This document shows positions 1,520-22,944 of a stretch of DNA of 64,000 nt, piece after piece; position 1 is the first letter of the stretch, and each line of letters opens with the position of its first letter. The stretch comes from Rubrobacter tropicus (GTDB lineage: Bacteria; Actinomycetota; Rubrobacteria; Rubrobacterales; Rubrobacteraceae). The position numbers were made by a program, and so were the translations under genes. The stretch covers positions 248,001 through 312,000 of the forward strand of contig NZ_CP045119.1 in NCBI RefSeq assembly GCF_011492945.1, written 5' to 3'. Below the pieces are notes generated by a model. It worked only from the letters and a program-made list of their open reading frames with translations, made no database searches and was not told the origin of the DNA.

Positions 1520-1552
1520 TCTTGCGTGGGCCGGTCCCATCGGTACGACGAA

Positions 1553-1584
1553 TGGGCTAGAGAAAGTTCGCCTTTGCGGGGGAT
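1553..1584 (+). promoter_or_regulatory. Composite element A (half-site plus dyad)
   Basis: The heptamer TGGGCTA (1553-1559), 7 nt ending in AAAG, TTCGC (1567-1571), 8 nt, then GGGAT (1580-1584) and GGCGG. It has the same order and spacing as elements C, D and E. It ends 72 bases before the ATG at 1657. Only one heptamer of the palindrome is present here. It may be an operator, promoter or leader RNA element; the function is inferred. Confidence 0.6.
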
Positions 1585-1656
1585 GGCGGGGTGGCCGTGA
1601 GGCGGGATGATTAGCGGTGATCCGTCGTGTAGAAGACCTGAGAGGGGCAAAAGGCG

Positions 1657-3564
1657 ATGACCGATGAGAGCGCGGGACGGCAGGCGACCACCGGCGGCAG
1701 GCGGGCAAAGGTGCTGGCGGTCTGCGCCCTGTCCCTCCTGGTGGGCCTGACGCTGGCGATACCGGCGTCGGCCATGCCCACCGGGCCGGGGGTCAGGGAC
1801 GGCAGGAACATCACCGTCTTCGGCAACCTGGACTTCGTGGCGGCCTTCGGCTACCAGACGCGCGAGAAGCTCACCGTGGACGTCTACCGCGGCGACACCC
1901 GCATAGCCACGGCGTTCGGGCTGGCGGTCGACACCCCGGAGGGCGGCGGTCTCGAGGTGAACCACGGCGTGGAGGGCAACGTGGTCCAGGGCGACTGCTG
2001 GGAGAACTTCACGCCCGACGTGCGTCCCGGCGACCGCATCGTGGTCACGGACGCCGCCGGGGTTACCGACCAAATCCTCGTCGACAACATAACGATGCCG
2101 GGTCCCGCGCAAGACAACCCCGCCACCCTCGACCCGTTCGACGTGATCGTGGAGGGCACGGCCTCCTACGCCGACGGGAGTCCGATCCCCATCGACCAGC
2201 TCAACTCCGGCGAGGTCAGGAGCGTCTCTCCCAGGCTCAGGGCCAACCCGACCAGGGTGGAGAGGATAGACGGCACGCAGGACGGCTGGAGGGCCATCTA
2301 CGAGGCGCCGTACGAGATCTTCGATCAGCGGGGGGCGCTTACCACTCAGCAGCAGAAGCAGGCCATCTTGAACGGCGACCACGCGATGGGCTACGGCCAC
2401 GTGGCGCCCCTGCCGGCGGAGGCCCAGCTCGTCGAGGGCCTCGGCACGGGCGGTCCCGCGCCTGGTTGCGAGGCCCTCGCCCCCGACGCGCCGGACAGCG
2501 CGCTCGGCGTCGCCTCCCCCGAGCTCATCACCCAGGCAAACGTGAACGAGAACGTCGCGGTAAGCGGCGTCATACAGGACGGCGTGGACGTCGGCCTGCA
2601 GCTCAACGGCGTGGAAGCCCCGGCGGCCGACGTGGACCGGGCGAACGGCACGTGGTCGGCCCTGATCCCGGCCTCCGGCCTCAGGGAGGGAGATAACGAG
2701 GTAAAGGCAACCTTCACCGGACCGGGCGCCCCGGCACAGCCGCAGACGGCGACCGTCGAGAAGGACACGGTCTCCCCGCCGCCCGCCACGGCGACCCCGA
2801 GGCCAGGCCTCTACAACACGAACCAGTCCGTCTCCCTGGGCGTCACGGAGGCGGGCGCGAAGATCCGCTACACGACGGACGGCTCCGACCCGACCGCGAC
2901 CACGGGCACCCTCTACGACGGCCAGCAGATAAACGTGACGAGCAGCCAGACCATAAAGGCGATAGTCGTGGACGCCGCGGGCAACCCCTCCAGCGTCGCC
3001 TCCTTCGGCTACACTATTGACCGCGTCGCCCCGAGCCTGACCTCGAACTTCGTCAGCGGCTCCTACGACGCGGCGCAGATGGTTCCCTTCACCTCCGACG
3101 ACCCGGGCGCGGAGATCCGCTACACCACCGACGGCTCCACGCCCAACAGGACCAGCAAACTGTACACGGGCCCGGTCCGGATAGCGAAAACCCAGACGGT
3201 CAAGGCGGTAGCCTACGACGCCGCGGGCAACGCCTCCGGGGTCCAGTCGAGGACCGTCACGATCCGCAAGGCCACGACGACCAACCTCAACGTCCCGACG
3301 GCCGACATGAAGCTCGGCAACACGCGGGCCATAGCGGGCGGGGTGAGCCCCAACCAGGCCGGCAGCTTCGTCAGGGTGACCATAGACCGTCCCGGCGACC
3401 TCCCGAACGCGACGCGCGGCTTCACGCTCAATGCCTTCTCCCGGTTCGGCTTCACCTACAGGCCGACAGCGGTAGGCACCTACCGGGTAAAGGCGAGCTT
3501 CGTCAAGGACGCCGACGGCCTGGGATCGACGAGCGCCGTCAAGAGCTTCAGGGTCGTCCGCTAA
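1657..3564 (+). CDS. Secreted surface protein with two CHB_HEX_C-type repeats
   Basis: A 635-residue protein. Residues 1-39 are a Sec signal peptide (basic stretch, then LAVCALSLLVGLTLA, cleavage after ASA). Residues ~40-270 are an N-terminal module shared with the preceding and following paralogs (EVNHG-EGN, GDCWENFTPDV, GDHAMGYGHV). After an Ig-like segment come two CHB_HEX_C-like repeats (~380-545, each with RYTTDGS-P and DAAGN) and the C-terminal module ending KSFRVVR. The ATG at 1657 has a GAGGGG about 9 bases upstream. Element A precedes it. Extracellular; probably a cell-surface or matrix protein. No catalytic motif was recognised. Confidence 0.9.
   Translation: MTDESAGRQATTGGRRAKVLAVCALSLLVGLTLAIPASAMPTGPGVRDGRNITVFGNLDFVAAFGYQTREKLTVDVYRGDTRIATAFGLAVDTPEGGGLEVNHGVEGNVVQGDCWENFTPDVRPGDRIVVTDAAGVTDQILVDNITMPGPAQDNPATLDPFDVIVEGTASYADGSPIPIDQLNSGEVRSVSPRLRANPTRVERIDGTQDGWRAIYEAPYEIFDQRGALTTQQQKQAILNGDHAMGYGHVAPLPAEAQLVEGLGTGGPAPGCEALAPDAPDSALGVASPELITQANVNENVAVSGVIQDGVDVGLQLNGVEAPAADVDRANGTWSALIPASGLREGDNEVKATFTGPGAPAQPQTATVEKDTVSPPPATATPRPGLYNTNQSVSLGVTEAGAKIRYTTDGSDPTATTGTLYDGQQINVTSSQTIKAIVVDAAGNPSSVASFGYTIDRVAPSLTSNFVSGSYDAAQMVPFTSDDPGAEIRYTTDGSTPNRTSKLYTGPVRIAKTQTVKAVAYDAAGNASGVQSRTVTIRKATTTNLNVPTADMKLGNTRAIAGGVSPNQAGSFVRVTIDRPGDLPNATRGFTLNAFSRFGFTYRPTAVGTYRVKASFVKDADGLGSTSAVKSFRVVR
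2909..3380 (+). repeat. 472-bp identical tract, copy 2 (first copy 800-1271)
   Basis: Identical to 800-1271. It covers both CHB_HEX_C-like repeats and the start of the C-terminal module. The third paralog (from 5241) encodes the same domains but with many synonymous differences, so the identity here is recent. Confidence 0.85.
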
Positions 3565-3700: not shown

Positions 3701-3752
3701 TTTGCAGAGAGGTTCTACCCCTCTGCAAACCGCTTCAGGCAGGGTCGGCCCT

Positions 3753-3793
3753 TAGCCCAATTGGACTACCCAAAAATCGTTGGAATTGACGAG
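3753..3793 (+). promoter_or_regulatory. Composite element B (7-2-7 palindrome plus dyad)
   Basis: TAGCCCA-AT-TGGACTA (3753-3768) is a palindrome of two heptamers two bases apart. Then come 7 nt and the dyad ATCGT-N8-ACGAG (3776-3793). The arrangement and spacing match elements C and D. It ends 73 bases before the ATG at 3867. The 7-2-7 geometry is that known for NarL-type HTH regulators; the binding factor is not known. Confidence 0.6.
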
Positions 3794-3866
3794 GAAGATC
3801 CCGGCGTTTCGCGGCATGATCGTGGCGTACGGAAAAGCCACGAGCAAGGACGATAGAGAGGTAAGC

Positions 3867-4214
3867 ATGAGGAAATTGGTGTTGATACTCACGGTCGCGG
3901 CGATGATGGTGGCCCTCAGCGCGGGCGCCGCCCTTGCGCTCAACCTTACGGGGGACAACGGCCCCGACAGGCTGGTCGGCACGGCCGAGAACGACACGCT
4001 TCGCGGCCTGGGCGGCAGGGACACCCTGATCGGGCGCGGCGACTCCGACCGCCTCTTCGGCGGCGACGGCAACGACTTCATAAACGCCGTCGACCCCGGC
4101 AGGGGCGAGACAGACCGCGTGAACTGCGGGGCCGGCTTCGACCGGGTGCTCATAGACCCCGGCACCGAGGACATCGTCGGGGGCAACTGCGAGAGGGTGG
4201 TCGTCTCCCGGTAA
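3867..4214 (+). CDS. Small secreted RTX-like (hemolysin-type) calcium-binding protein
   Basis: A 115-residue protein. The ATG at 3867 is chosen over the in-frame start at 3780 because GAGAGG lies 5 bases upstream and a clean signal peptide follows (MRKLVLILTVAAMMVALSAG, cleavage near ALA). The mature part has RTX-like Gly/Asp repeats (LRGLGGRDTLIG, RLFGGDGND), known in this family to bind calcium as a beta-roll. It ends with a two-cysteine tail (DRVNCGAGFD ... GGNCERV) shared with the proteins at 14311 and 20353. Element B precedes the gene and a strong terminator follows. Extracellular; the exact role is unknown. Confidence 0.8.
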   Translation: MRKLVLILTVAAMMVALSAGAALALNLTGDNGPDRLVGTAENDTLRGLGGRDTLIGRGDSDRLFGGDGNDFINAVDPGRGETDRVNCGAGFDRVLIDPGTEDIVGGNCERVVVSR

Positions 4215-4268: not shown

Positions 4269-4276
4269 GCCGGGGC

Positions 4277-4317
4277 TAGTCCAGATGGGCTAGTCAAAGT
4301 TCGTCCATACACGCGAT
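4277..4317 (+). promoter_or_regulatory. Composite element C (7-2-7 palindrome plus dyad)
   Basis: TAGTCCA-GA-TGGGCTA (4277-4292), 7 nt ending in AAAG, then TTCGT-N8-GCGAT (4300-4317) followed by GGCGG. It ends 69 bases before the ATG at 4387. It is almost identical in layout to element D. Confidence 0.65.
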
Positions 4318-4386
4318 GGCGGGGTACGCCCTGCGGACGATCATAACGGCGCAGAGTCAAGAGCCGAAGTGGAGGCGCGAAACCCT

Positions 4387-4983
4387 ATGACCTCGCAGAC
4401 CGCGATCAGAGAGACCGAAGACCTTTCCGGGGCCGTCTCCCCGACGGTACCCAGGTATCGGGCGGTGGCGGGGGCTTTGATCCTGGCTTTTGCCGTCGCC
4501 GCGGCGCTGGTCGCGGGCGGGTGGGGCCTGGTCTCTTCCCTGACGGGCGAGGAGCCCCCTGCTCGTGTCGGGGAAGACGTAAAGGTGCCCGGTGGGCTGC
4601 TTCGGGTCGAGAAGGTGACGCCGGAGCACATGGCGCCCATGCAGACCTCCAAGTTCTCCGCCGGTGGCATGAACATGTCCTCCACGGGCATGGACATGGC
4701 CCCGGAGGGATACGAGCGCTTCGCCGTCGAGGTGACGCTGGTCTCGCGCGGCGGCCTCGAGTACGCGCCCGAAGACTTCCGCCTCTCCGGCAAAGGGGTC
4801 AAGGACCACCAGCCGATCCGGTCGCAACTCGGCGAGGACAACCTCGCGGGCGGCAACGCCGTCGCGGGCAACCTGGTCTTCCAGGCCCCCGAGAAGGCCG
4901 AAAACCTGATGCTCCGGTTCGACGGCGGCCGTGCCGTCGCCCTGGATCTCCCGGCCGGCGAGGGCGGGGGCCACGGCCACTAG
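4387..4983 (+). CDS. Membrane-anchored protein with Met-rich and His-rich segments
   Basis: A 198-residue protein. The ATG at 4387 is chosen because GGAGG lies 11 bases upstream; a GTG at 4369 is the alternative. One N-terminal membrane segment (residues ~24-48, GALILAFAVAAALVAGGWGLV) is followed by an extracellular domain. Residues ~77-105 hold a cluster of methionines (HMAPMQ, GMNMSSTGMDMAP) and the protein ends GGGHGH. Such Met/His patterns can bind copper in other proteins; that is only an inference here. The beta-rich remainder (YERFAVEVTLV, EDFRLSGKG) resembles DUF4352-type domains. Elements C (before) and D (after) flank it. Confidence 0.7.
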   Translation: MTSQTAIRETEDLSGAVSPTVPRYRAVAGALILAFAVAAALVAGGWGLVSSLTGEEPPARVGEDVKVPGGLLRVEKVTPEHMAPMQTSKFSAGGMNMSSTGMDMAPEGYERFAVEVTLVSRGGLEYAPEDFRLSGKGVKDHQPIRSQLGEDNLAGGNAVAGNLVFQAPEKAENLMLRFDGGRAVALDLPAGEGGGHGH

Positions 4984-5001
4984 ATTTGTGCCCCGCGTTT
5001 C

Positions 5002-5042
5002 TAGTCCACATGGGCTAGTAAAAGATCGCCCATAAACGCAAT
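5002..5042 (+). promoter_or_regulatory. Composite element D (7-2-7 palindrome plus dyad)
   Basis: TAGTCCA-CA-TGGGCTA (5002-5017), GTAAAAG, then ATCGC-N8-GCAAT (5025-5042) and GGCGG. ATGGGC (5010-5015) also pairs perfectly with GCCCAT (5028-5033), so overlapping alternative dyads exist. It lies 198 bases before the chosen ATG at 5241. Confidence 0.65.
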
Positions 5043-5240
5043 GGCGGATCGAACGCAACGGGCGAAGATTCGCAGACCAAAGCAGGAGGCGGAGGAGGTG
5101 GGTTCCACGAACAACGCGACGATCTACGATCCGGCAGGCCAGACGCATGCTTGTCCGTTGTCCAGGAGCCCGGATACATAAAGAAGGCAAAGACACCACC
5201 AGGCGAAACCGACGAGAAAAGCAACGAAAGGAAGAAAAGA

Positions 5241-7115
5241 ATGACTGCCAGGCCCACAAACATATTAGAGAGCGGAAGCAAGCTCAAGAAGCTGCTCGCC
5301 CTCTCGGCCACCGCCCTCGTGATGGGCGCGGCCGCCGCGAGCCCTTCCTGGGCCGCCGTGAACAACCCGCACGCCTTGACCGTGTTCCCCGACCGCGACA
5401 TGGTGGTCGCCGAGAACTATCAAAACGGCATAGACATGCGGATCGAGGTGCTCAGGAACGGCGTCGTCATAGGCGATACCGGGGCGGCCAGGACCGTCGC
5501 GGGGGCCGCGGGGTCCGGCCTCGAGGTCAACCACGGGGCCGAAGGAAATCCGGGACCGGGCGACTGCTGGGTCGGCGCCACCCCGGACATCCAGGGCGGC
5601 GACGTGGTGCGGGTTACAACCCCCGCCGGCGTCGAGACCACCACCGTCGCGGACATCGCCATCACCTCCGGGCCCACCGAAGACGCCAACGGCAACGTGG
5701 TCGTCGGGGGACGCGCGATCGCCCCGGGCGGCGGACAGTTCGCCGCGGGCGAGCTCGCCGAGGAGGTAAGGGACCTGACCCCGCGCTGGCGCGGCGAACC
5801 CGACAGCATCGACTACGTGGGCGCCACCACCGACTGGCAGGCCATCTACGAGGCCCCGTTCTCGGACAACGCGGTCCAGGAGGACGGCGGCATGACCGAG
5901 GCCGGGCGCAAGGATTCCATCCTCACCGGCGGGCACTCCATCATCTGGGCCAACGGCGCCGGCAACGAGACCACCATCTCCGAGCTCGGCGAGCCCGGCG
6001 GGCCCGCCGCCGGCTGCGAGGAAACTGCTCCGGCCGCGAAGACCGCGATGTCGAGCGTCTCGCGCGACCTGATCAACACGGCCAACGCCAACGAGAACCT
6101 GGTGGTCAGCGGCGTCGCCACGGCCGACATCACCAACGTCAACATAGCGCTCGGCGGCCAGAACTTCGCGGCGGCCCCGGCCAACGGGACGTGGGAGATC
6201 ACCGTCCCCGCCTCCGCGCTGGCGAACCTGCCCCAGGGACCCTCCAACCTCGTCGCCAGCTTCACCAGCAACACCAACACGGCCCCGGCGAACCAGTCGC
6301 GGACCATCAACAAGGACACGGTGGCGCCGAACGCCGCGACGGCAAGCCCGGGCGGCGGCATCTACAACACCGACCAGTCCGTCTCCCTGGGCTCGCCCGA
6401 GGGTAATGCCCAGATCTACTACACTACGGACGGCTCCGAGCCGACGGCCGCCACCGGCACCCCCTACACGGGCCAGCAGATCGTCGTGACCGGCAGCCAG
6501 ACCATAAAGGCGATAGTCGTGGACGCCGCGGGCAATTCCTCCAGCGTCGCCTCCTTCGGCTACACCATAGACCGCGTCGCCCCGGGCCTCAGCATGACCC
6601 CGGCCACGGGCTCCTACGACGCGGCCCAGACGGTGACCCTCGCCTCCGACGACCCTGACGCGGAGATCCGCTACACCACCGACGGCACCACCCCAAACAG
6701 GGGCAGCGACCCCTACTCAGGCCCGATCCAGGTGTCGAGGACCCAGACGGTCAAGGCGATAGCCTACGACGCGGCCGGCAACGCCTCCCAGGTGCAGTCG
6801 AGGACTATCACGATCCGCACCCAGAGCACGACCACGCTCAACGTCGCCACCGCCGATATGAAGCTCGGCAACACGCGGGCCATAGGCGGGGGGGTGAGCC
6901 CGAACAACTCCGGCGGGACGGTCAGGTTGACGATAGACCGGCCCGGGACCCTCACGACGATAACGAGGAACCTCACGCTCAACGAGTTCTCGCGGTACTC
7001 CACGAGCTACAGGCCGACCGCGGTTGGCACCTACAGGATAAAGGCTGCGTTCGCCAAGGACGCCGACAACCTGGCCTCCACGAGCGAGACGAAGAGCTTC
7101 AGGGTGGTGCGCTAG
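5241..7115 (+). CDS. Secreted surface protein with two CHB_HEX_C-type repeats
   Basis: A 624-residue paralog of the two preceding long surface proteins. The ATG at 5241 is preferred over an in-frame start at 5151 because an AAAGGA lies upstream and the signal peptide follows directly (KLKKLLALSATALVMGAAAA, cleavage near SWA). The mature part has the shared N-terminal module (EVNHGAEGN, GDCWVG-TPDI), an Ig-like segment, two CHB_HEX_C-like repeats (YYTTDGSEPTAA, RYTTDGTTPN, DAAGN) and the C-terminal module ending KSFRVVR. It lacks the 472-bp identity of the first two genes. Element D lies upstream and a terminator follows. Exported; function unknown, probably structural or adhesive. Confidence 0.88.
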   Translation: MTARPTNILESGSKLKKLLALSATALVMGAAAASPSWAAVNNPHALTVFPDRDMVVAENYQNGIDMRIEVLRNGVVIGDTGAARTVAGAAGSGLEVNHGAEGNPGPGDCWVGATPDIQGGDVVRVTTPAGVETTTVADIAITSGPTEDANGNVVVGGRAIAPGGGQFAAGELAEEVRDLTPRWRGEPDSIDYVGATTDWQAIYEAPFSDNAVQEDGGMTEAGRKDSILTGGHSIIWANGAGNETTISELGEPGGPAAGCEETAPAAKTAMSSVSRDLINTANANENLVVSGVATADITNVNIALGGQNFAAAPANGTWEITVPASALANLPQGPSNLVASFTSNTNTAPANQSRTINKDTVAPNAATASPGGGIYNTDQSVSLGSPEGNAQIYYTTDGSEPTAATGTPYTGQQIVVTGSQTIKAIVVDAAGNSSSVASFGYTIDRVAPGLSMTPATGSYDAAQTVTLASDDPDAEIRYTTDGTTPNRGSDPYSGPIQVSRTQTVKAIAYDAAGNASQVQSRTITIRTQSTTTLNVATADMKLGNTRAIGGGVSPNNSGGTVRLTIDRPGTLTTITRNLTLNEFSRYSTSYRPTAVGTYRIKAAFAKDADNLASTSETKSFRVVR

Positions 7116-7323: not shown

Positions 7324-7392
7324 TAGCCCATATGGGCCATTGCAATCAAGGTAGCAAGAATGGGCTACGCAAAGATCGCCCATTCGCGCGAT
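7324..7392 (+). promoter_or_regulatory. Composite element E (palindrome, extra half-site, dyad)
   Basis: TAGCCCA-TA-TGGGCCA (7324-7339) is an imperfect 7-2-7 palindrome around a perfect 12-bp GCCCATATGGGC. A second TGGGCTA (7361-7367) is followed by 7 nt ending AAAG and the dyad ATCGC-N8-GCGAT (7375-7392). It precedes the two-gene unit starting at 7577 by 184 bases, leaving a long leader. Confidence 0.6.
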
Positions 7393-7576
7393 GCTCGGAG
7401 AGGTCCCCCAAGGCGACCATGTTCGGCAGGAAGCGCGACGCTACGAGAAGGACTTGCGCATGACATTTTCGCCACCTCAACCCGGCCGCGCCGGGCGTGC
7501 GGTCCGGACGCGTCCCCCCTGACTGCCCGATAAGTTCGGGTTCGCCGGGGAGCAGTCTACGAAGGAGAGGGAAACG

Positions 7577-8965
7577 ATGACCATAGAGGGAAAAGGCGGG
7601 AGAGGCGGCATGTTGAAGGGTGTCATCGTGGCGGCGCTACTCGCGGCCGTCCTCGCCGCCGGGGTTCTGGCGGGGTCCGCCTCGGCCGCCGATCAGGTCC
7701 AGGCGGGCCGCACTATCGAGGCCTTCACGGGGACCGACCTAGTGGACTTACAGGGCTACCCGGCCAACGCGGACGTCACCGTGGAGGTGATCCGCAGCGG
7801 CGTGCTCGTCGGGAGGGTGGGCGGTACGACCGACGATACGGGGTTCGTGGAGTTCAACCACGCCGGCGGCGGCCAGGTCCCCGCGGGCGACTGCTTCCAG
7901 CCGAACGCCACGCCTGACATCCGGGCGGGGGACGTGATCCGCACGAGGACAGCGGGAGATCCCGCGGGCGTCTTCGACTCCGCCGTCGCGCGAGACATAG
8001 GCGTCAACTTCGCGACGATCACGACCAACACCACGAACAACACGATCACGATCTCCGGCCACGTTCGCAGCAGGCCCGACGCGGTCGTGGTCCCCGGCAC
8101 GGACGTTCTGGAGCTGCGCCTCAACAAGGCCAACCGCAATAACAACTGGGACTCCAACGGCAGGCGCGACCTGCGCGTGGACATCGGCGCGAACGTCGGC
8201 GCCAACGGCCTCTGGACCAGGGTCCTGCGCGTGAGCCACGACGACGCCCTGGACTGGAGGGCCAACCCCGGAGAGGTCTCCCTGGAGTGGTCGACCGCGG
8301 CCGCGGGCGAGGAAGAGGCGGCGCCGCCGGCGATCTTCGTCGCCGACGAGGGGGGCGGGGAGGCCATCGTCGGATGCCCGCCCGTCGCCGAGTACGCGGT
8401 CAAGGGCGCGAGCCACAGGGTCATCAACAAGAGCTTTGTCGACGGCACGTCGGACCTCGTGCTGACGGGCACCTCCTTCAACGCCCAGGCCGTGACCGTG
8501 AGGCTCAACAACAGGATCTCCGCGGACGCCGTGATCTCCACGCAGCCGTCCGGCCACCAGACGTGGCGGGCCGTCTTCACCAACGCCCAGGTCTCGGGCC
8601 TGGCCGACGGGGCCATCACGGCTGGCGCCACGTACACGGTCGACAGGGACGTCACCGGCGCGAACGTCACCCCGACGAACTTCGCCGGGACGCTGCTGAC
8701 CCTCAGGAAGGACACGGTGGCGCCGGCCGCCAAGCCGGTCGCCAGGCCCGAGCCCGGCGTCTACAACAGGCCGGTCTCGGTCTTCCTCAAGGCACCGGCG
8801 GGGACAAAGGTCCGCTACACCGTCGGCGGGGGCGCGCCGACCATTAACAGCCAGCTCTACACGGGTCCGATCCGGGTGACCGGCACCCAGACGATCCGGG
8901 CCGCCGCTTTCGACCCGGCGGGCAACAGGGGCCCCGTCGGCTTCTTCCGGTACAGGATTCGCTAG
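7577..8965 (+). CDS. Secreted protein with one C-terminal CHB_HEX_C-type repeat
   Basis: A 462-residue protein. The ATG follows AAGGAGAGG by 6 bases. Signal peptide: residues 1-37 (LKGVIVAALLAAVLAAGVLAG, cleavage SASA). The N-terminal module (FNHAGGGQVPAGDCF, TPDIRAGDVIRTR) is distantly like that of the longer paralogs. The middle holds LRLNKANRNNNWDSNGRRDLR, and the end is a single CHB_HEX_C-like repeat (PGVYNRPVSV, VRYTVGGGAPT, FDPAGNRGPVGFFRYRIR). The next gene, 58 bases on, is its paralog, so both are probably one transcript under element E. Extracellular, function unknown. Confidence 0.85.
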   Translation: MTIEGKGGRGGMLKGVIVAALLAAVLAAGVLAGSASAADQVQAGRTIEAFTGTDLVDLQGYPANADVTVEVIRSGVLVGRVGGTTDDTGFVEFNHAGGGQVPAGDCFQPNATPDIRAGDVIRTRTAGDPAGVFDSAVARDIGVNFATITTNTTNNTITISGHVRSRPDAVVVPGTDVLELRLNKANRNNNWDSNGRRDLRVDIGANVGANGLWTRVLRVSHDDALDWRANPGEVSLEWSTAAAGEEEAAPPAIFVADEGGGEAIVGCPPVAEYAVKGASHRVINKSFVDGTSDLVLTGTSFNAQAVTVRLNNRISADAVISTQPSGHQTWRAVFTNAQVSGLADGAITAGATYTVDRDVTGANVTPTNFAGTLLTLRKDTVAPAAKPVARPEPGVYNRPVSVFLKAPAGTKVRYTVGGGAPTINSQLYTGPIRVTGTQTIRAAAFDPAGNRGPVGFFRYRIR

Positions 8966-10522: not shown

Positions 10523-10555
10523 TGGATTGTCACAAAAATCACGCAGATGAGTGAT
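10523..10555 (+). promoter_or_regulatory. Degenerate composite element F upstream of response regulator
   Basis: A weak heptamer (TGGATTG, 10523-10529), then an A-rich spacer and the dyad ATCAC-N8-GTGAT (10538-10555) followed by GGCGG. The dyad arms differ from elements C and E by paired changes, so symmetry is kept. It ends 67 bases before the GTG at 10623, the same distance as elements A, B and C. Confidence 0.5.
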
Positions 10556-10622
10556 GGCGGGCGCGCGGCCGTGTGCCAGTATTGGTGGTGCGTGGACCTC
10601 TGCCCGCCCCGGAGACGATAGT

Positions 10623-11291
10623 GTGGACTCGGGGACGACTAAAATACTGCTGGTCGAAGACCATCACCTGCTCCGCCAGGCGCTTGCCGAAATCCTCGGG
10701 CGGGAGCGGGACTTCCTCGTGGTCGCCCAGGCCGGATCGCTGGCCGAGGCGCGCGGTCTGCTGGAGGGGGTGGACGTCGCCATCGTGGACCCCGGGCTCC
10801 CCGACGGGGACGGAACGGAGCTCATAAGCGAGCTACGCGAGGCCAGCCCCGGCTGCATCGCCCTGATCATGACGGCAAGCCTGGACAGGACTCGCTTCGC
10901 GCGGGCGGTGGAGGCCGGCGCGGCGGGCATGATTCACAAGGCTTCTTACCTGCAAGAGGTCATCGACGCCGTGCGCCGCGCACGCGCGGAGGGGACACTT
11001 CTCTCGACCGGCCAGATCATCGAGTTGATGGGCCTGGCGTCCAGCCAGAGGGACCGGGCCGCCGCCGCCCGGGCGGCGGCGGAGAGGCTTACGCCGCAGG
11101 AGAAGGAGATCCTCCAGGGGCTCGGCCAGGGGTTGGGCAACAAGGAGATAGCGCGCCGCCTGGGCGTCGCCATCGATACGGAGCGCAACTACATGGCGAC
11201 CCTACTGACCAAGCTCGGCGCCCGCACCCGCCTCCAGGCGCTCGTTATCGCGATCCGCCACGGCCTCGTGGACCTCCACCCGAAAGACTGA
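10623..11291 (+). CDS. NarL/FixJ-family response regulator
   Basis: A 222-residue two-component response regulator. The GTG at 10623 is chosen because GGAG lies 8 bases upstream and the receiver domain begins at once; the earlier in-frame ATG at 10551 falls inside element F. Receiver domain ~6-120: acidic E12/D13, phospho-acceptor D56 (DVAIVDPGLPDGDG), T in IMTAS, K in IHKAS. LuxR-type HTH ~160-215 (LTPQEKEILQGL, NKEIARRL, MATLLTKLGARTR). No histidine kinase lies nearby, so its input is unknown. It has its own copy of the element found before the surface-protein genes, which would fit autoregulation; not proven. Confidence 0.88.
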   Translation: MDSGTTKILLVEDHHLLRQALAEILGRERDFLVVAQAGSLAEARGLLEGVDVAIVDPGLPDGDGTELISELREASPGCIALIMTASLDRTRFARAVEAGAAGMIHKASYLQEVIDAVRRARAEGTLLSTGQIIELMGLASSQRDRAAAARAAAERLTPQEKEILQGLGQGLGNKEIARRLGVAIDTERNYMATLLTKLGARTRLQALVIAIRHGLVDLHPKD

Positions 11292-16399: not shown

Positions 16400-18523
16400 T
16401 TATCCCGCCGATACTATGAGAACGTCCTTATTCTCGAAGACCGCGGGATAGAGGTCCGGGTGGGCCTCGAAGCGTCTCCAGTAGTCGGCCGTCGGCCTGT
16501 CTGGCATGTTTTTGTAGAGGACGATGTAGCGAATATCGTACTCTTTCAGGGTGTTCGAGGCCTGTTCGCCTGTCGGGTTTATCATGGTGCGCAGGACGTC
16601 CATGAGGGGTTCGGGGCCGGTGGGGGGTAGGTCTCTGGGGGTCAGGATCTGGCCGTACTCGAACGACTGGAGCGCGGAGTACTCGCCCATCGCGAGCATC
16701 ATCCGGCTCGGAACCTGGTTGGCGTGCGGGCTTACCATGATGTTGCCGCCCTCGTTGTGGCTTTCGAGCCAGGCCCCGGCCTCGGCTATGGCCGGCGTCG
16801 TGGTCATCTGGACGCTCGGCTTGGCCGCCCAGCGGAGGCTCTGGACCGTTCCGGTCCCGACGAGCGCCACCGCCAGCAACACCACCACCGAGGCTGCGAA
16901 GACGGATGCTGTTCTTCTGCGGGGTCCCGCGGACTTGAGCACGGCGACGAGGCCGAGGGCGGCCAGCAGGGCGAGCGGGATGCCCAGGTCTCGCCCGAAG
17001 CGTTGGGGGAAGCCGGTCACCGAGAGGCGGCTGCCGGCAAAGAGGATCGCGGCCCACAAGAACACCGTCAGGTGCGCCAGGGAGACGGGCATCCCGCCCG
17101 TCTCCCTTACCCTGACGACCAGGAGGAAGATACCAAGCAGGCCGAGCCAGGCTACGGGCTGGGAGACCATCGTCCCGACCAGGAAACCCTCGGCGTAGAT
17201 CGCCTGCGTGTTCACCGCCATTCCGACGGCCTCACCGGTCGTCCCCCCGCCACCGCCGCCGAAGAACCGGGAAATCTCACCGCCCAGATCGTAGGTGTGC
17301 CAGGCGTACGCGACGGCGAGGGAGCCCAAAAGCGCCAGCGAGAGCGTCAGGGCGAGGCCCCCGCGCCTGTCGCGGAAGAGGAGCGGCAGCGCGAAGTACA
17401 CCCCGACGAGCGCGAGCAGGGCCGCCAGGTACATGCTCGCGACCGGGTGGTAGAGGGCGACCGCGGAGCCAAGGATAGCCAGCGAGAGGCCGTTTCGAGC
17501 CGAAGGCGAACGGTACATCACGACCAGCGAGGCGAGCGCCATTACCAGCAGGAACTGCGAGGTGACCAGGTTCGGGTACATGGCGTCGTTGAAGTAGTAG
17601 TACGTGCCGCCGAGGAGAACGGTGAAGAAGGCCGCGGCCACCCCGTAGCCCCAGCCCCAGAGCCTGTTGCCGAGGGTGTAGAGGGCGAGGGCCGGGAGAA
17701 GTAGCAAGGCGGGGCCGAGGACGGGGAAGATCTCCAGCGGGTCGAGGCCCGTCAGGCGGGAGACGGAGGCGGTCAGGGTGTGGAAACCCGGGGGGTAGAT
17801 CAGGTACGGCTCGATCCTCCCCGCGTCCATCAGCCGGTTCGCCATCACGGCGTGCGAGTAATGATCTACCCCCCGCATGAAGGGCCAGTCGTGCAACACG
17901 GGCCCGGTGTATCCCCGCGCCAGCGCGAGCAAGAGCACCGCGGGCAATAGAAGCCGCCGTACGCCCGGCGGGACCGTCGGCAGGAGAGATTCGGACCTTG
18001 CCTGCTCTTCCGGCGCCTCCGGGCGTTGGCGGAAGATCAGGTACAGCACCCCCGATGCTCCGACCAGCAACGCGAGGACGAGCGACATCCCCCTCGTAGG
18101 AACGACGCTGCCCGTGATCGCCGGCGCCACCACCTCCCCCGGCACGGCCCCGACCAGGACCCCGAGCGCCAGGGCCAGAGCCACCGCGAGCGGCGCGAGC
18201 GCGGGTGCCGGGAGCGGCACGGCCGGGTCGGGGACGACGGGCTCGTCGTCACCCTTGGCCCGTCCGAACCTCGCGTGGGCCGCGAAGCCCGCCAGAAACA
18301 CAAAGAGGGCCGAGGCGACGACCACGGGAAGCGTCAGGCCGAGGCCGAGCAGGCGCGTCGGTACGAGTGCTACGGCCGGCATGAGCGCCATGGAGAAGGC
18401 CACGGAGAGGGCCGCCCGTTCGGCGAGGTCCGTCGGCGCGCGCAGCAGCCCGGCCCAGAACCATCCGGGGGCGACCCCCACCGCGACGGCGGCCAGGGAC
18501 GCCAGGGTCAGATCCAGCAACAC
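16400..18523 (-). CDS. Large polytopic GT-C-like membrane protein
   Basis: A 707-residue protein with roughly a dozen or more membrane helices in its first ~560 residues and a soluble C-terminal domain (GAWLESHNEGGNIMVSPHANQVPSRMMLAMGEYSALQSF, IRYIVLYKNMP). A landmark is DHYSHAVMANRLMDAGRIEPYLIYPPGFHTLTA, matched closely in the paralog at 20878. Architecture resembles DUF6541/arabinofuranosyltransferase-like GT-C proteins; an outer-face glycosyltransferase for a surface polymer is inferred. Start ATG/GTG at 18523 near GAACGAAGAG. A PHO-box-like array lies 82-121 bases upstream. It runs opposite to the LOV regulator. Confidence 0.75.
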   Translation of the reverse strand: MLLDLTLASLAAVAVGVAPGWFWAGLLRAPTDLAERAALSVAFSMALMPAVALVPTRLLGLGLTLPVVVASALFVFLAGFAAHARFGRAKGDDEPVVPDPAVPLPAPALAPLAVALALALGVLVGAVPGEVVAPAITGSVVPTRGMSLVLALLVGASGVLYLIFRQRPEAPEEQARSESLLPTVPPGVRRLLLPAVLLLALARGYTGPVLHDWPFMRGVDHYSHAVMANRLMDAGRIEPYLIYPPGFHTLTASVSRLTGLDPLEIFPVLGPALLLLPALALYTLGNRLWGWGYGVAAAFFTVLLGGTYYYFNDAMYPNLVTSQFLLVMALASLVVMYRSPSARNGLSLAILGSAVALYHPVASMYLAALLALVGVYFALPLLFRDRRGGLALTLSLALLGSLAVAYAWHTYDLGGEISRFFGGGGGGTTGEAVGMAVNTQAIYAEGFLVGTMVSQPVAWLGLLGIFLLVVRVRETGGMPVSLAHLTVFLWAAILFAGSRLSVTGFPQRFGRDLGIPLALLAALGLVAVLKSAGPRRRTASVFAASVVVLLAVALVGTGTVQSLRWAAKPSVQMTTTPAIAEAGAWLESHNEGGNIMVSPHANQVPSRMMLAMGEYSALQSFEYGQILTPRDLPPTGPEPLMDVLRTMINPTGEQASNTLKEYDIRYIVLYKNMPDRPTADYWRRFEAHPDLYPAVFENKDVLIVSAG

Positions 18524-18604
18524 GGCTCTTCGTTCCTTGTCCGGCGGCCAGGCACGCCGAACAGGTTAGCAAGCACGCCGCCCGCCACGGGCCCCATCCG
18601 GCGC

Positions 18605-18644
18605 ATTTAACCCATTCTTTACCCGGCTTTAAGACCCGTTTTAC
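18605..18644. promoter_or_regulatory. PHO-box-like array (4 units, 11-bp period)
   Basis: Plus-strand units ATTTAAC (18605), TCTTTAC (18616), CTTTAAG (18627) and GTTTTAC (18638) start exactly 11 bases apart. It is placed in a divergent intergenic region between the GT-C gene (start 18523) and the LOV regulator (start 18820). Confidence 0.55.
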
Positions 18645-18779
18645 GCACCACGGACAAACCCCGCCCGGCGGGCCGCTCGGCCAGGGTTTCGGAGGGGCCA
18701 ATTGCTTGGTCCGTGCCGGTAGGCCCTATCTCACTTGACCGCAACCAGGCATCTTGCGTAACATACGGGCATCTATGCG

Positions 18780-18795
18780 TAGCCCTGTTGGGCTA
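18780..18795 (+). promoter_or_regulatory. 7-2-7 palindrome upstream of the LOV-LuxR gene
   Basis: TAGCCCT-GT-TGGGCTA: the left arm TAGCCCT differs from the TAGYCCA consensus of elements B, C and D only at its last base, which pairs T with T across the dyad. It lies 24 bases before the ATG at 18820, so it may be an autoregulatory operator. The second dyad of the composite elements is absent here. Confidence 0.55.
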
Positions 18796-18819
18796 GATGT
18801 GGGTGTGGCGGAGGAGAGG

Positions 18820-20166
18820 ATGGCCATGCGTAACCCGGCTGACGACGCGCGCAGGACCCCGCCCGGACGGGCCGTTGGGCCCGAAAGCATGCCCTTCGTG
18901 GTGTTCGCGCTGGACGCGGACGGGGTGTTCACCGCCTCCGACGGCGAGGGGCTGTCCGCTTTGGGCCTGGAGCCCGGCGAGGTCGTCGGAAGGTCCGCCT
19001 TCGAGATGTACCGCGGGGAGCCGGGGGTGCTGGAGAACCTCGACCGGGCGCTTCTGGGCGAGTCCTTCTCCTCCGTGGTCGAGGTCGGCGGGAAGGCCTT
19101 CCGGTGTCGCTACGACCCTTTGCGCGACGCCGCGGGCGGGGTGGTCGGCGCGGTCGGCCTCGCGGCGGAGGCCGAGGAGATCTCAAGATCCGCGAGCGAC
19201 GTCCGCCTAAAAGAGCGGGCGATGGCCGCGAGCTCGGACGGGATAGTCATAACCGACCCGAACCGTCCGGATGACCCCATCGTCTACGTCAACCCCGCCT
19301 TCGAGAAGATGACCGGCTACTCGGAGGCCGAGGTGCTCGGGCGAAACTGCCGTTTCCTGCAGGGGGAGGACCGCGTCCAGCCGGCGCTGGACGAGCTCAG
19401 GGCTGCGCTCCGGGACGGCCGGGAGTGCTCCGTGGTCCTGAAGAACTACCGCAAGGACGGCACGCCCTTCTTCAACGAGCTCTCCGTCTCGCCCGTCTTC
19501 GATGGGGAAGGGCATCTTTTCAACTACATAGGGGTCCAGAAGGACGTAACCGAACGGGTCCGGCACGAGGAGGAGCTCAAAGAGAGCGAAGAGCGCTTCC
19601 GGATGACCTTCGAGGCGGCGGGGGTTGGCATGGCCCACGTCGCGCCCGACGGGAGGTGGCTCAGGATCAACGGCAAGCTCGCCGAGATAGTGGGCTACCC
19701 CAGAGAAGAGTTGCTGTCGCTAACGTTTCAGGACATCACCCATCCGGAAGACCTCGAGAAGGATCTGGAGCACGTGAACAGGATGCTCCTCGGGGAGATA
19801 GACGGCTACTCGATGGAGAAGCGCTACGTCAGGAAGGACGGGCTCAGGGTCTGGGTCGAGTTGACCGTCTCTGCGCTGCGCTCTGGCTCCGGGGGATTGG
19901 CATGTTTCGTTTCCGTCGTAGAGGACATAACCGGGCGCAAGCTCGCGGAACTGGTGTCGGACCCACTAACCGGGAGGGAGCTCGAGGTTCTGGAGCTCGT
20001 CGCGGGGCGCCGCACGAACGGGGAGATAGCGGAGACGCTCAACTACAGCGTGGCCACCGTCAAGCTGCACGTCGGGCGCCTGATCTCCAAGCTGGGCGTC
20101 GAGAACCGGGCCCGTGCCGCGGGACGGGCCGTCGAGATCGGGCTCATACCCCCTCCGCCCCAATAA
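18820..20166 (+). CDS. PAS-LOV-PAS-LuxR transcription factor (putative blue-light receptor)
   Basis: A 448-residue protein. The ATG at 18820 has GGAGG 5 bases upstream; an in-frame start at 18754 would overlap the operator. Order: PAS ~25-125; LOV ~133-243; PAS ~258-375; LuxR HTH ~382-440 (LTGRELEVLELVAG, TNGEIAETLNYSVATVKLHV). The LOV domain has all flavin-photochemistry residues: GRNCRFLQG with the adduct-forming Cys (residue ~177), N in NYRKDG and FFNEL, and the Gln in YIGVQKD. Known LOV-HTH proteins such as EL222 dimerise and bind DNA on blue light. Two extra PAS domains are unlike EL222. Cytoplasmic; targets probably include genes with the 7-2-7 palindrome (inference). Confidence 0.9.
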   Translation: MAMRNPADDARRTPPGRAVGPESMPFVVFALDADGVFTASDGEGLSALGLEPGEVVGRSAFEMYRGEPGVLENLDRALLGESFSSVVEVGGKAFRCRYDPLRDAAGGVVGAVGLAAEAEEISRSASDVRLKERAMAASSDGIVITDPNRPDDPIVYVNPAFEKMTGYSEAEVLGRNCRFLQGEDRVQPALDELRAALRDGRECSVVLKNYRKDGTPFFNELSVSPVFDGEGHLFNYIGVQKDVTERVRHEEELKESEERFRMTFEAAGVGMAHVAPDGRWLRINGKLAEIVGYPREELLSLTFQDITHPEDLEKDLEHVNRMLLGEIDGYSMEKRYVRKDGLRVWVELTVSALRSGSGGLACFVSVVEDITGRKLAELVSDPLTGRELEVLELVAGRRTNGEIAETLNYSVATVKLHVGRLISKLGVENRARAAGRAVEIGLIPPPPQ

Positions 20167-20352
20167 TCCCACCGCGCGCGAAACACCACTCGTAGCTGTC
20201 CGGAAAGATCCCGGAGCGCCGGACCGTTGGTTTTTGTGGCGGTAGCGGCCGGCCGGTGCCGCAAGGGGCATAAAGGAAGAGGCTAAACATCCCCCCTTCC
20301 GTTGCCGAGTATGCGAGCAAGGATGTACGGGTTCTTGCGGGAGGTTGGAAAG

Positions 20353-20718
20353 ATGCGGAGAAGGTTCGCGGTGATCCTGGTTGCGGTTTCGGTTCTCATT
20401 CCGACGTTGGGGGGAGGGGCGGCCCTGGCGGCCACGCTCATCGGTACCGGGGGGCCGGATCGCATCGTCGGCTCGGTCCGGGCGGACTGGATCGACGGGC
20501 GGGCGGGCGACGACAGGATATCCGGGGGCGGCGGCGAGGACAGGATACAGGGCGGACCCGGAAACGACCTCGTACGGGCCAACGACGACTGGTCCAGAGA
20601 TTACGTCGATTGCGGTCCCGGCTTCGACACCGTCTCCGCGGACCCCGGATCTTCCTCGCCACGCGACTTATACGTAGACTGCGAGTTCCGTTCGGCACCG
20701 TACCAGCCAACGCCGTGA
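20353..20718 (+). CDS. Small secreted RTX-like calcium-binding protein
   Basis: A 121-residue protein. The ATG at 20353 is favoured by GGAGG about 8 bases upstream; starts at 20302 and 20323 are in frame but would leave a long basic leader. Signal peptide: MRRRFAVILVAVSVLIPTLGG, cleavage near ALA. Mature part: RTX-like repeats (LIGTGGPDRIVGS, DWIDGRAGDDRISGGGGEDRIQGGPGND) and the two-cysteine tail (YVDCGPGFDTVSADP ... YVDCEF). Third member of this small family in the window, with 3867 and 14311. Neither the composite element nor a clear PHO box is seen directly upstream. Extracellular; function unknown. Confidence 0.78.
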   Translation: MRRRFAVILVAVSVLIPTLGGGAALAATLIGTGGPDRIVGSVRADWIDGRAGDDRISGGGGEDRIQGGPGNDLVRANDDWSRDYVDCGPGFDTVSADPGSSSPRDLYVDCEFRSAPYQPTP

Positions 20719-20877: not shown

Positions 20878-22944
20878 TCAGGTGTCGCGGGGCTCGAAGA
20901 TGACGACGCTCTCGTTCTGGTAGGCGATCCTGTACAGGTCCTTTTGTTGGGCGTATGGGAGCCAGCTTATGCCTGGGTAGCGCTTGTGGAAGACGACGTA
21001 GCGGATGTCGTTCTCCCGCATTATTCGCTCCGTTTTCCCACCCGTGGGATGCTTGAGTACCCACAGGGCGTCCAGGAGGGGGCCTTCGCCGAAGGGGGGG
21101 AGGTCCCTCGCGCGCAGGATGCGGGCGTAGTCGTAGGACTGCATCTTCGTGTAGCCGCCCATCGCGAGCATCCCCCGGCTCGGGACGTAATCGAGGTAGG
21201 GCGTCGCGACGATGCTGCCGCCCCCGTTGTTCTCGCCAAGCCAGGAGCCCGCGGCCGCTACCTGTGGCGGGGCCGGCCTGTCCCTCGGGCGCTCGCTCGG
21301 GCCCGACGCCTGCTCCAGGTTGCGGGTCGTCTGGACTACCAGGAGCCCCGCGGAGAGTAGGGCTGCGAACAGGGACGCCGCTAGCGCCGCGCGGGACGGG
21401 GTGAGGCGGGGCGAGGCGCGCAGGAGCAGGACGAGCGCCGGGGCGGCGAGCAGGGCGAGGGGGGCGCCGAGGTCCCGGTCGAAGCGGTCGGGGAAGCCTG
21501 AGTAGCTCGTCTGGCTGCCGACGAAGAGGAGGGCGGCCCACACGATCAGGGTGAGGTGCGCCAGCCTGGCGGGCGCGTTGCCGCCCGCGCGGTTCGGGAG
21601 GAGCATCATCGCGCCGAAGAGGCCCAGCCAGAGGACCGGGGCCGTGATCGTCACCAGAAGGTACGTCGGGTGGTTGGCCGGTTTGGTCCCTATGGCCATC
21701 GCCACCGCGTCCCCGCCCCGACCGGTCCCCGAGCCGCCGAAGAGGCCCGCGACGAGGTCGGGCAGGTCGTAGGTGTCCCAGGCAAAGGCCGCGGCGAGCA
21801 CGAAGAGTAGGGCGAGCGAGCCGAGGAGGAAGATACCCGTCCTGCGGTGCCTGAGCAGCAAATACGGCAGGAAGAACAGGGCGACGACGGCGAGCAGCAC
21901 GGCCATGACGTAGCCCGCGATCTGGTGGTAGAAGACCGCCGACGAGCCGAGCAGGGCGAGCAGCAGGCCGGCCCGGATCGTCGGGGTGGCGTAGGCCCCG
22001 ATCAGGGCCGCGACCGCCAGGATTATGATGATCTGCTCCCCCACGAAGTTCGGGTACCGCGCCTCGACAAAGTGCAAATACGCCCCGCCGAGCACGGGCC
22101 CGGACAGGAACGCCGCCGCCACGCCCACCGTCCTCCCCCAGAGCCGCGCCGCGAGGGCGTAGCTCGACAGCGACGTCAGCGCCAGAAGCGCCGGGGCGAG
22201 CGCGGGGAAGAGGGCCATCGGCTCCAGCCCGCTGAGGTTGGAGATCATGGCCGAGAGCGCGTGGAAGCCAGGGGGGTAGAGCATGAACGACTCCGTGGAC
22301 CCGCCCTCCGCCATCATGCTCGTCATGATCGCGTGCTCGTAACGGTCGACCCCCCGCGGGAAAGGCCATCCGTTCAAAACGGGCCCGAGATACCCCCTCG
22401 CCAGCGCCAGCAAGAGCGCCACGGAGAGCAGGCCGTACACGAGCGTGGGCGAGGCTTCGTCCTGCGTCTCTTCCGGCCCCGTCTCTCCCCTCCTTCGCAT
22501 CGAGAGCCAGTAGAGAACGCCCGAGAGGACGATGAGTGCCGCCGTCGGGATCATGGCCCAGCCGCCGAGGAGGCCGAAGAACGTGCCGAGCGCCAGAAGC
22601 AGCGCCAGGCAGAGCGGCACGAGCGTGGCGATGTCCGGCGCCGGGGGCAGCGGTGCCAGCGGGCGTGAGGACCCTTTCGCGGCGCCGAACAGGAGCCTGG
22701 CGGCGAGACCTGCGGCGAACACGAGGACCACGGAGATTATGGAGACCGTCGTGGTGACGCCCGTGCCGAGGATGCTAGAGAAGATCAGGGCGACGGCGGG
22801 AACCAGCGTTACGGAGAGGGCTATCGCGTAGGCGAGGCGTTCGGCGAGGTCGTCCGTGGCCGCCAGGCATCGCGCCCAGAAATAGCCCGGCACGAGGCCG
22901 ACGAGCAGGGCCACGGGGACGGCCCGGATCAGGTCGAGCAGCAC
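20878..22944 (-). CDS. Large polytopic GT-C-like membrane protein
   Basis: A 688-residue paralog of the protein at 16400-18523. Shared landmarks: a membrane start (LLDLIRAVPVALLVGLVPGYFWA), the RGVDRYEHAIMTSMM segment, LYPPGFHALSAMISNLSGLEP, YFVEARYPNFVGEQ-type loop, and a soluble C-terminal domain (GSWLGENNGGGSIVATPYLDYVPSRGMLAMGGYTKMQSYDYA, IRYVVFHKRYP). About 14 membrane helices. An outer-face sugar transferase acting on lipid-linked donors is inferred by family resemblance. The two paralogs flank the LOV regulator and an RTX-like gene. Start ATG/GTG at 22944. Confidence 0.75.
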   Translation of the reverse strand: MLLDLIRAVPVALLVGLVPGYFWARCLAATDDLAERLAYAIALSVTLVPAVALIFSSILGTGVTTTVSIISVVLVFAAGLAARLLFGAAKGSSRPLAPLPPAPDIATLVPLCLALLLALGTFFGLLGGWAMIPTAALIVLSGVLYWLSMRRRGETGPEETQDEASPTLVYGLLSVALLLALARGYLGPVLNGWPFPRGVDRYEHAIMTSMMAEGGSTESFMLYPPGFHALSAMISNLSGLEPMALFPALAPALLALTSLSSYALAARLWGRTVGVAAAFLSGPVLGGAYLHFVEARYPNFVGEQIIIILAVAALIGAYATPTIRAGLLLALLGSSAVFYHQIAGYVMAVLLAVVALFFLPYLLLRHRRTGIFLLGSLALLFVLAAAFAWDTYDLPDLVAGLFGGSGTGRGGDAVAMAIGTKPANHPTYLLVTITAPVLWLGLFGAMMLLPNRAGGNAPARLAHLTLIVWAALLFVGSQTSYSGFPDRFDRDLGAPLALLAAPALVLLLRASPRLTPSRAALAASLFAALLSAGLLVVQTTRNLEQASGPSERPRDRPAPPQVAAAGSWLGENNGGGSIVATPYLDYVPSRGMLAMGGYTKMQSYDYARILRARDLPPFGEGPLLDALWVLKHPTGGKTERIMRENDIRYVVFHKRYPGISWLPYAQQKDLYRIAYQNESVVIFEPRDT

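Follow-up and report, generated by a model that had tools for sequence, protein, structure and literature searches.

Which protein acts on a palindrome that stands both before secreted surface-protein genes and before the gene of a predicted blue-light receptor in Rubrobacter tropicus? The stretch analysed here (64,000 nucleotides of contig NZ_CP045119.1, positions 248,001 to 312,000; hereafter the window) encodes at 18820-20166 a regulator that joins a LOV domain to a LuxR-type helix-turn-helix (HTH), which we call the LOV-LuxR protein, and the palindrome also precedes CHB and RTX genes near the start of the window. A sequence-only reading had proposed that the LOV-LuxR protein is a light switch for a regulon comprising itself and these surface genes. 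We favour, with moderate confidence, a different account, in which a conserved NarL-type response regulator would read the palindrome and drive the surface genes, and the LOV-LuxR gene would be one target of that circuit. The account draws on protein domains, palindrome sites, conservation of a promoter module, synteny and co-occurrence, from which we infer the identity of the binding protein, the phosphorelay, the direction of regulation and the response to light.

The surface-gene promoter module and its candidate reader

When the flanks of all sites are compared, the palindrome at the surface genes proves to form the distal part of a longer module. Alignment of 26 sites from seven genomes over 82 positions gave TAGCCCANNTGGGCTA-GNN-AAAGATCGCCCAT-NTN-CGCGATGGCGG-N17-CATCATT, and the module is spread across genomes of the family (f1, probably Rubrobacteraceae). 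The palindrome itself is not random: exact matches to TAGYCCANNTGGRCTA number 9 in this genome against none for the reversed control, and 26 against 1 over 39 family genomes. Where the distal half-site decays, the proximal one is retained (e.g., at window position 1551 and at C1:243221). Since TCGCCCA in the second element is one base off the half-site TAGCCCA, the module may contain three heptamers and, if CATNATT is taken as the -10 element, with transcription predicted to begin about 7 nt beyond it, the centre of the palindrome would fall near -67 from the predicted start. The module model finds 28 places in this genome (G000), 25 in G025, 22 in G037, 16 in G046, 15 in G003, 11 each in G002 and G004, and 10 in G031; a phylum sample of 149 genomes yielded matches at E 0.001 in six, of which five belong to the family. 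Within the window, the module and the related regulator gene lie as follows (all on the + strand).

1551..1615: module that has lost its distal half-site, before the CHB gene 1657-3564 (23.3 bits)
3751..3822: module with full palindrome (3753-3768), before an RTX gene (Met at 3867; 28.3 bits)
4275..4348: module with palindrome (4277-4292), before a DUF4352-like gene, 4369-4983 (62.4 bits)
4998..5073: module with palindrome (5002-5017), before the CHB gene 5151-7115 (58.1 bits)
7350..7426: module (TAGCAAGAATGGGCTA) with a second palindrome ahead at 7324-7339, before the CHB gene 7577-8965 (42.2 bits)
10533..10586: core of the module, lacking the palindrome, where a NarL-type response regulator gene begins (17.8 bits, model positions 24-77)
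10551..11291: that response regulator (REC+GerE), a divergent paralogue of the conserved regulator at G000:C1:213668-214360

The conserved NarL-type regulator itself is encoded outside the window, some 34 kb before it begins, in an operon (G000:C1:213668-218895; L049:5668-10895) with two small paralogous proteins and a LOV histidine kinase. The order that recurs is histidine kinase, NarL-type response regulator, small protein, module and second small protein, and the regulator and small-protein order is kept in about ten other family genomes. The two small proteins have no Pfam match, and one lies behind a module promoter; a role as pseudo-receivers was dropped, as the match was weak (probability 14%).

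Synteny and co-occurrence link this regulator to the module. A search with its HTH found 11 loci at ≥85% identity, and a module lies ≤1 kb downstream at 10 of them, compared with 2 of 61 other family members (p 1e-9; counted by hand from lists, the case in this genome resting on a 17-bit match). Genomes with the regulator have more modules (p 2e-5), an association that persists among genomes without a PAS-LuxR homologue, that is, a relative of the LOV-LuxR protein (p 0.001); a PAS-LuxR homologue alone gives p 0.009, all these values being indicative because related genomes are not independent. Exact palindromes occur in 6 of the 11 genomes with the regulator vs. 1 of the 28 without it. Moreover, the recognition helix of the regulator is near-invariant (TVETERTHMVNILNKL), while those of PAS-LuxR homologues vary (SVATVKLHVGRLISKL here, SLGTVKLELEHIITKL in G025) though their sites are the same. 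We conclude that the conserved response regulator is probably the main reader of the module palindrome, its binding being predicted from these comparisons. The paralogue encoded within the window (10551) was rejected for this role on account of its divergent recognition helix.

Several observations weigh against this assignment. In this genome the regulator has a weak module next to it, G004 has the regulator without a module within 1 kb, and G040, which lacks a close match to the regulator, carries two exact palindromes. The regulator genomes that also have a PAS-LuxR homologue hold the most modules (16-28 vs. 3-15, p 0.01), a count from a model trained partly on those genomes, and also most of the exact palindromes, a count free of that training; a second protein that reads the full palindrome would fit these numbers. 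The one-mismatch form of the palindrome, in addition, has a genome-wide background of several sites.

The arrangement recalls characterised NarL-class sites, which consist of two inverted 7-bp elements with a 2-bp gap (7-2-7), and NarL can activate from about -67.5 (PMC7419079). The conserved regulator is likewise a REC and GerE protein, the module palindrome is 7-2-7 and its inferred geometry matches the -67.5 position (PMC7419079); the module half-site and the recognition helix TVETERTHMVNILNKL are not those of NarL, and the module has extra conserved downstream elements. We therefore propose TAGCCCANNTGGGCTA as a putative 7-2-7 operator, used mainly by the conserved regulator and not by the LOV-LuxR protein. 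The module before CHB, RTX, Ig-like and multicopper-oxidase genes would be a fixed activator-dependent promoter, with the palindrome near -67, the third heptamer-like TCGCCCA near -49, and then weak -35 and -10 elements. Kinases would phosphorylate the response regulator, which would bind the palindrome together with the third heptamer and activate the surface genes.

The surface-gene cluster, which starts outside the window at C1:213.7 kb and extends to 258.6 kb, comprises CHB, Ig-like, RTX and multicopper-oxidase genes; two multicopper oxidases stand behind module promoters at its start (L049:15154-19033). The CHB proteins 184-1455, 1657-3564 and 5151-7115 are nearly identical in their C-terminal parts, which suggests recent duplication or conversion.

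The LOV-LuxR gene and its promoter

18735..18764, + strand: sigma-70-like promoter TTGACC-N18-TAACAT (9/12 match, the sole one in 18520-20420)
18780..18795, no strand: palindrome TAGCCCTGTTGGGCTA, one mismatch to TAGYCCANNTGGRCTA, 3′ of the predicted transcription start
18809..18818, + strand: Shine-Dalgarno-like sequence GGAGGAGAGG
18820..20166, + strand: LOV-LuxR gene, a PAS-LOV-PAS-GerE(LuxR) one-component regulator of 448 residues
19216..19560, + strand: LOV domain (approx. residues 133-247) with GRNCRFLQG
19960..20121, + strand: GerE/LuxR HTH with recognition helix SVATVKLHVGRLISKL (Pfam and HTH search)

The reading frame runs without interruption from a TTG at 18754 to the stop at 20166, and the likely start is the ATG at 18820, which has GGAGGAGAGG ahead of it and gives 448 residues. 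Pfam detects PAS-class stretches and a GerE HTH (3e-13). The middle PAS is the LOV domain: its segments GRNCRFLQG, LKNYRKDG, FFNEL and IGVQKDV align to solved bacterial LOV proteins (E 2e-39 to 3e-36), EL222 among them, and the flavin pocket is intact, with the adduct-forming Cys in GxNCRFLQ and the pocket Asn, Asn and Gln all present. These results bear out the earlier description of a PAS, a LOV domain with GRNCRFLQG, another PAS and a LuxR HTH. The HTH is related to EL222 chains and to NarL-class domains, and a PAS domain (about residues 283-367 of 448) separates it from LOV. The protein also fits the PAS-LuxR layout (N-terminal PAS, C-terminal LuxR HTH) and has family homologues of 51-65% identity over PAS and HTH. 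We regard it as a genuine photoreceptor-type one-component regulator, with flavin binding and a light response predicted. No second case of the PAS-LOV-PAS-LuxR order was found in the family genomes searched, and searches for orthologues in genome contigs and, likewise, in plasmids returned only PAS/LOV proteins without full coverage, close records possibly having been left out.

LOV-HTH proteins are already known, such as EL222 of Erythrobacter litoralis (PMC9614035), with which the LOV-LuxR protein shares a LOV domain with the reactive Cys and a NarL/LuxR-type HTH in a single chain. It differs in the PAS domains that flank LOV, so that the HTH follows a PAS and is not directly next to LOV, and in an HTH that groups with PAS-LuxR proteins of the same bacterial family. 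PimM-class PAS-LuxR proteins share the PAS and GerE HTH and a 16-bp palindromic site, with the characterised consensus CTVGGGAWWTCCCBAG (PMC9774167). Neither TAGCCCANNTGGGCTA nor the site before the LOV-LuxR gene has that consensus; known PimM sites are at -35 and not downstream of the predicted start as here, and the LOV domain is a further difference.

As the sequence-only reading had stated, a single-mismatch palindrome, TAGCCCTGTTGGGCTA at 18780-18795, precedes the LOV-LuxR ATG with a gap of 24 bp; it is a perfect 6-4-6 dyad within an intergenic promoter. With one mismatch allowed, TAGYCCANNTGGRCTA has 15 matches in this genome against 6 for the reversed control, and the lone site is therefore weak evidence by itself; two-mismatch sites (48 vs. 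49 reversed) were dismissed as background. The gene of a PAS-LuxR homologue in another genus (G025; 60% identity over PAS and HTH) repeats the layout as TTGACC-N17-TAACAT-N10-TAGCTCATTTGGGCTA-N24-GTG, with the TTGACC..TAACAT pair and the 24-bp gap in common, and we estimate the chance of such a repetition over nine homologues at 0.0007-0.003. For this reason the LOV-LuxR palindrome is probably real, and we incline to the view that it functions. Another instance of the layout is C1:1913249 (L054:6250-6265), an exact palindrome without the module behind TTGACC-N18-TAACAT, followed by a gene for a 194-residue protein with no Pfam match. The narrow pattern TTGACC-N34..46-palindrome matched only at C1:1913202, in part because it left no room for the G025 spacing and the LOV-LuxR mismatch. 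The G037 PAS-LuxR homologue, which has a similar N-terminal PAS in another frame, has no palindrome upstream.

In gene orientation the LOV-LuxR promoter has no module match above 12 bits, vs. 23-62 bits at the window surface genes. A partial match on the minus strand (15.1 bits) is mostly the palindrome itself and was rejected as the promoter of a divergent gene. At roughly +10 to +25 relative to the predicted start near 18771, the palindrome occupies what appears to be a repression-like position, and a protein bound there would most simply repress. Repression from this position is consistent with the response regulator's own promoter in G025, where a palindrome lies over the predicted -10 (G025:C73; L206:8009-8024), itself an arrangement that suggests negative autoregulation. 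Because the palindrome stands alone at such a position, the LOV-LuxR gene is best read as a putative target of the response-regulator circuit.

A gene for a small secreted RTX-repeat protein (20302-20718) lies 136 bp downstream of the LOV-LuxR gene without a module of its own and is a possible direct target of the LOV-LuxR protein. Two membrane proteins, apparent paralogues on the minus strand (16400-18523 and 20878-22944), border this LOV-RTX pair on both sides. Elsewhere in the genome, a ComM-like (Mg-chelatase-like) gene has a perfect dyad, TAGCCCGTTTGGGCTA, in its leader (C1:2058552; L055:6553-6568).

Competing explanations

In the original proposal, as developed here, blue light would make the LOV-LuxR protein dimerise and bind the palindrome, and the protein would regulate its own gene as well as switch the CHB/RTX genes. 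This proposal draws on the intact LOV pocket, on an HTH akin to those of EL222 and the NarL class, on the palindrome at its own promoter and at that of its homologue, on the 16-bp palindromes bound by Streptomyces PAS-LuxR proteins (PMC9774167), and on the concentration of modules in genomes that pair the response regulator with a PAS-LuxR homologue. Against it, the LOV-HTH architecture was observed in this genome only whereas modules occur in many, and PAS-LuxR homologues are not present wherever modules occur: G031, G003 and G004 carry 10-15 modules each without a homologue of ≥51% identity. The homologues' recognition helices diverge and the site does not, at 10 of 11 loci the module is a neighbour of the conserved response regulator, and the LOV-LuxR promoter lacks the second and third elements of the module, with its palindrome on the downstream, repression-like side of the predicted start. 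What survives of the regulon claim is a non-random palindrome common to the surface genes and the LOV-LuxR promoter; the rest of the module is not shared. We consider this proposal unlikely, and binding of the palindrome by the LOV-LuxR protein is similarly improbable; autoregulation by it is possible, though less likely.

The LOV-LuxR site could instead be a chance near-match, with no tie between its gene and the surface-gene circuit. A genome is expected to hold several one-mismatch sites (six in the reversed control), the module is absent at this promoter, and the related sites at C1:1913249 and C1:2058552 precede unrelated genes, but the perfect dyad in an intergenic promoter and the low estimated chance of the layout repeated in G025 make coincidence a doubtful explanation. 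Far less probable is an RNA hairpin, formed by the palindrome in the 5′ leader of the LOV-LuxR mRNA, in place of a DNA operator. The palindrome lies 3′ of the predicted start and can form a 6-bp stem with a 4-nt loop, but the folding energy is ordinary (z -0.13), an Rfam search of window positions 1-22000 returned no match, and the copies at the surface genes, far ahead of the predicted start, would stay untranscribed. On the folding and Rfam results we rejected an RNA element in this leader, and we retain the response-regulator circuit as the preferred explanation.

Possible light input to the circuit

Light may nevertheless enter the circuit by a route other than the one first proposed: a light-switched surface regulon finds little support via the LOV-LuxR protein and could run via the LOV histidine kinase in the regulator operon. 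This kinase (C1:215368-218895) has 1175 residues in a DUF4118-PAS-LOV-GAF-PAS-kinase arrangement with GLNCRFLQ, HisKA_3 and HATPase. LOV kinases are likewise neighbours of the regulator in G003, G025 and G037 and, at a second G031 locus, of a related regulator, whereas the kinases of G001, G002, G006 and G046 are without the LOV motif, which speaks against general light control. Given the LOV kinase in the operon here, the surface genes may plausibly be under two-component light control, though not as a general rule; light or redox signals may reach them by phosphorelay, through LOV-containing kinases in this genome and several relatives. A parallel is LovK-LovR of Caulobacter crescentus, a LOV histidine kinase system that acts on surface attachment (PMC6530869) and offers an analogy for the proposed light-to-surface route; the partner here differs in being a DNA-binding NarL-type regulator beside its target genes. 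A dual scheme, in which the LOV kinase and the NarL-type regulator drive the secreted CHB/RTX/multicopper-oxidase genes under blue light and the LOV-LuxR protein shares the operator and feeds back, strikes us as rather unlikely.

We found no description of the module or the operon in the literature, as covered without most subscription journals. If the account is correct, these little-studied actinobacteria would gain a defined regulon, with one operator module, one regulator and a set of secreted surface genes, and with two candidate blue-light inputs. The protein of first priority would then shift to the response regulator rather than the LOV-LuxR protein alone, and a control of the cell surface by light in these bacteria would become testable.
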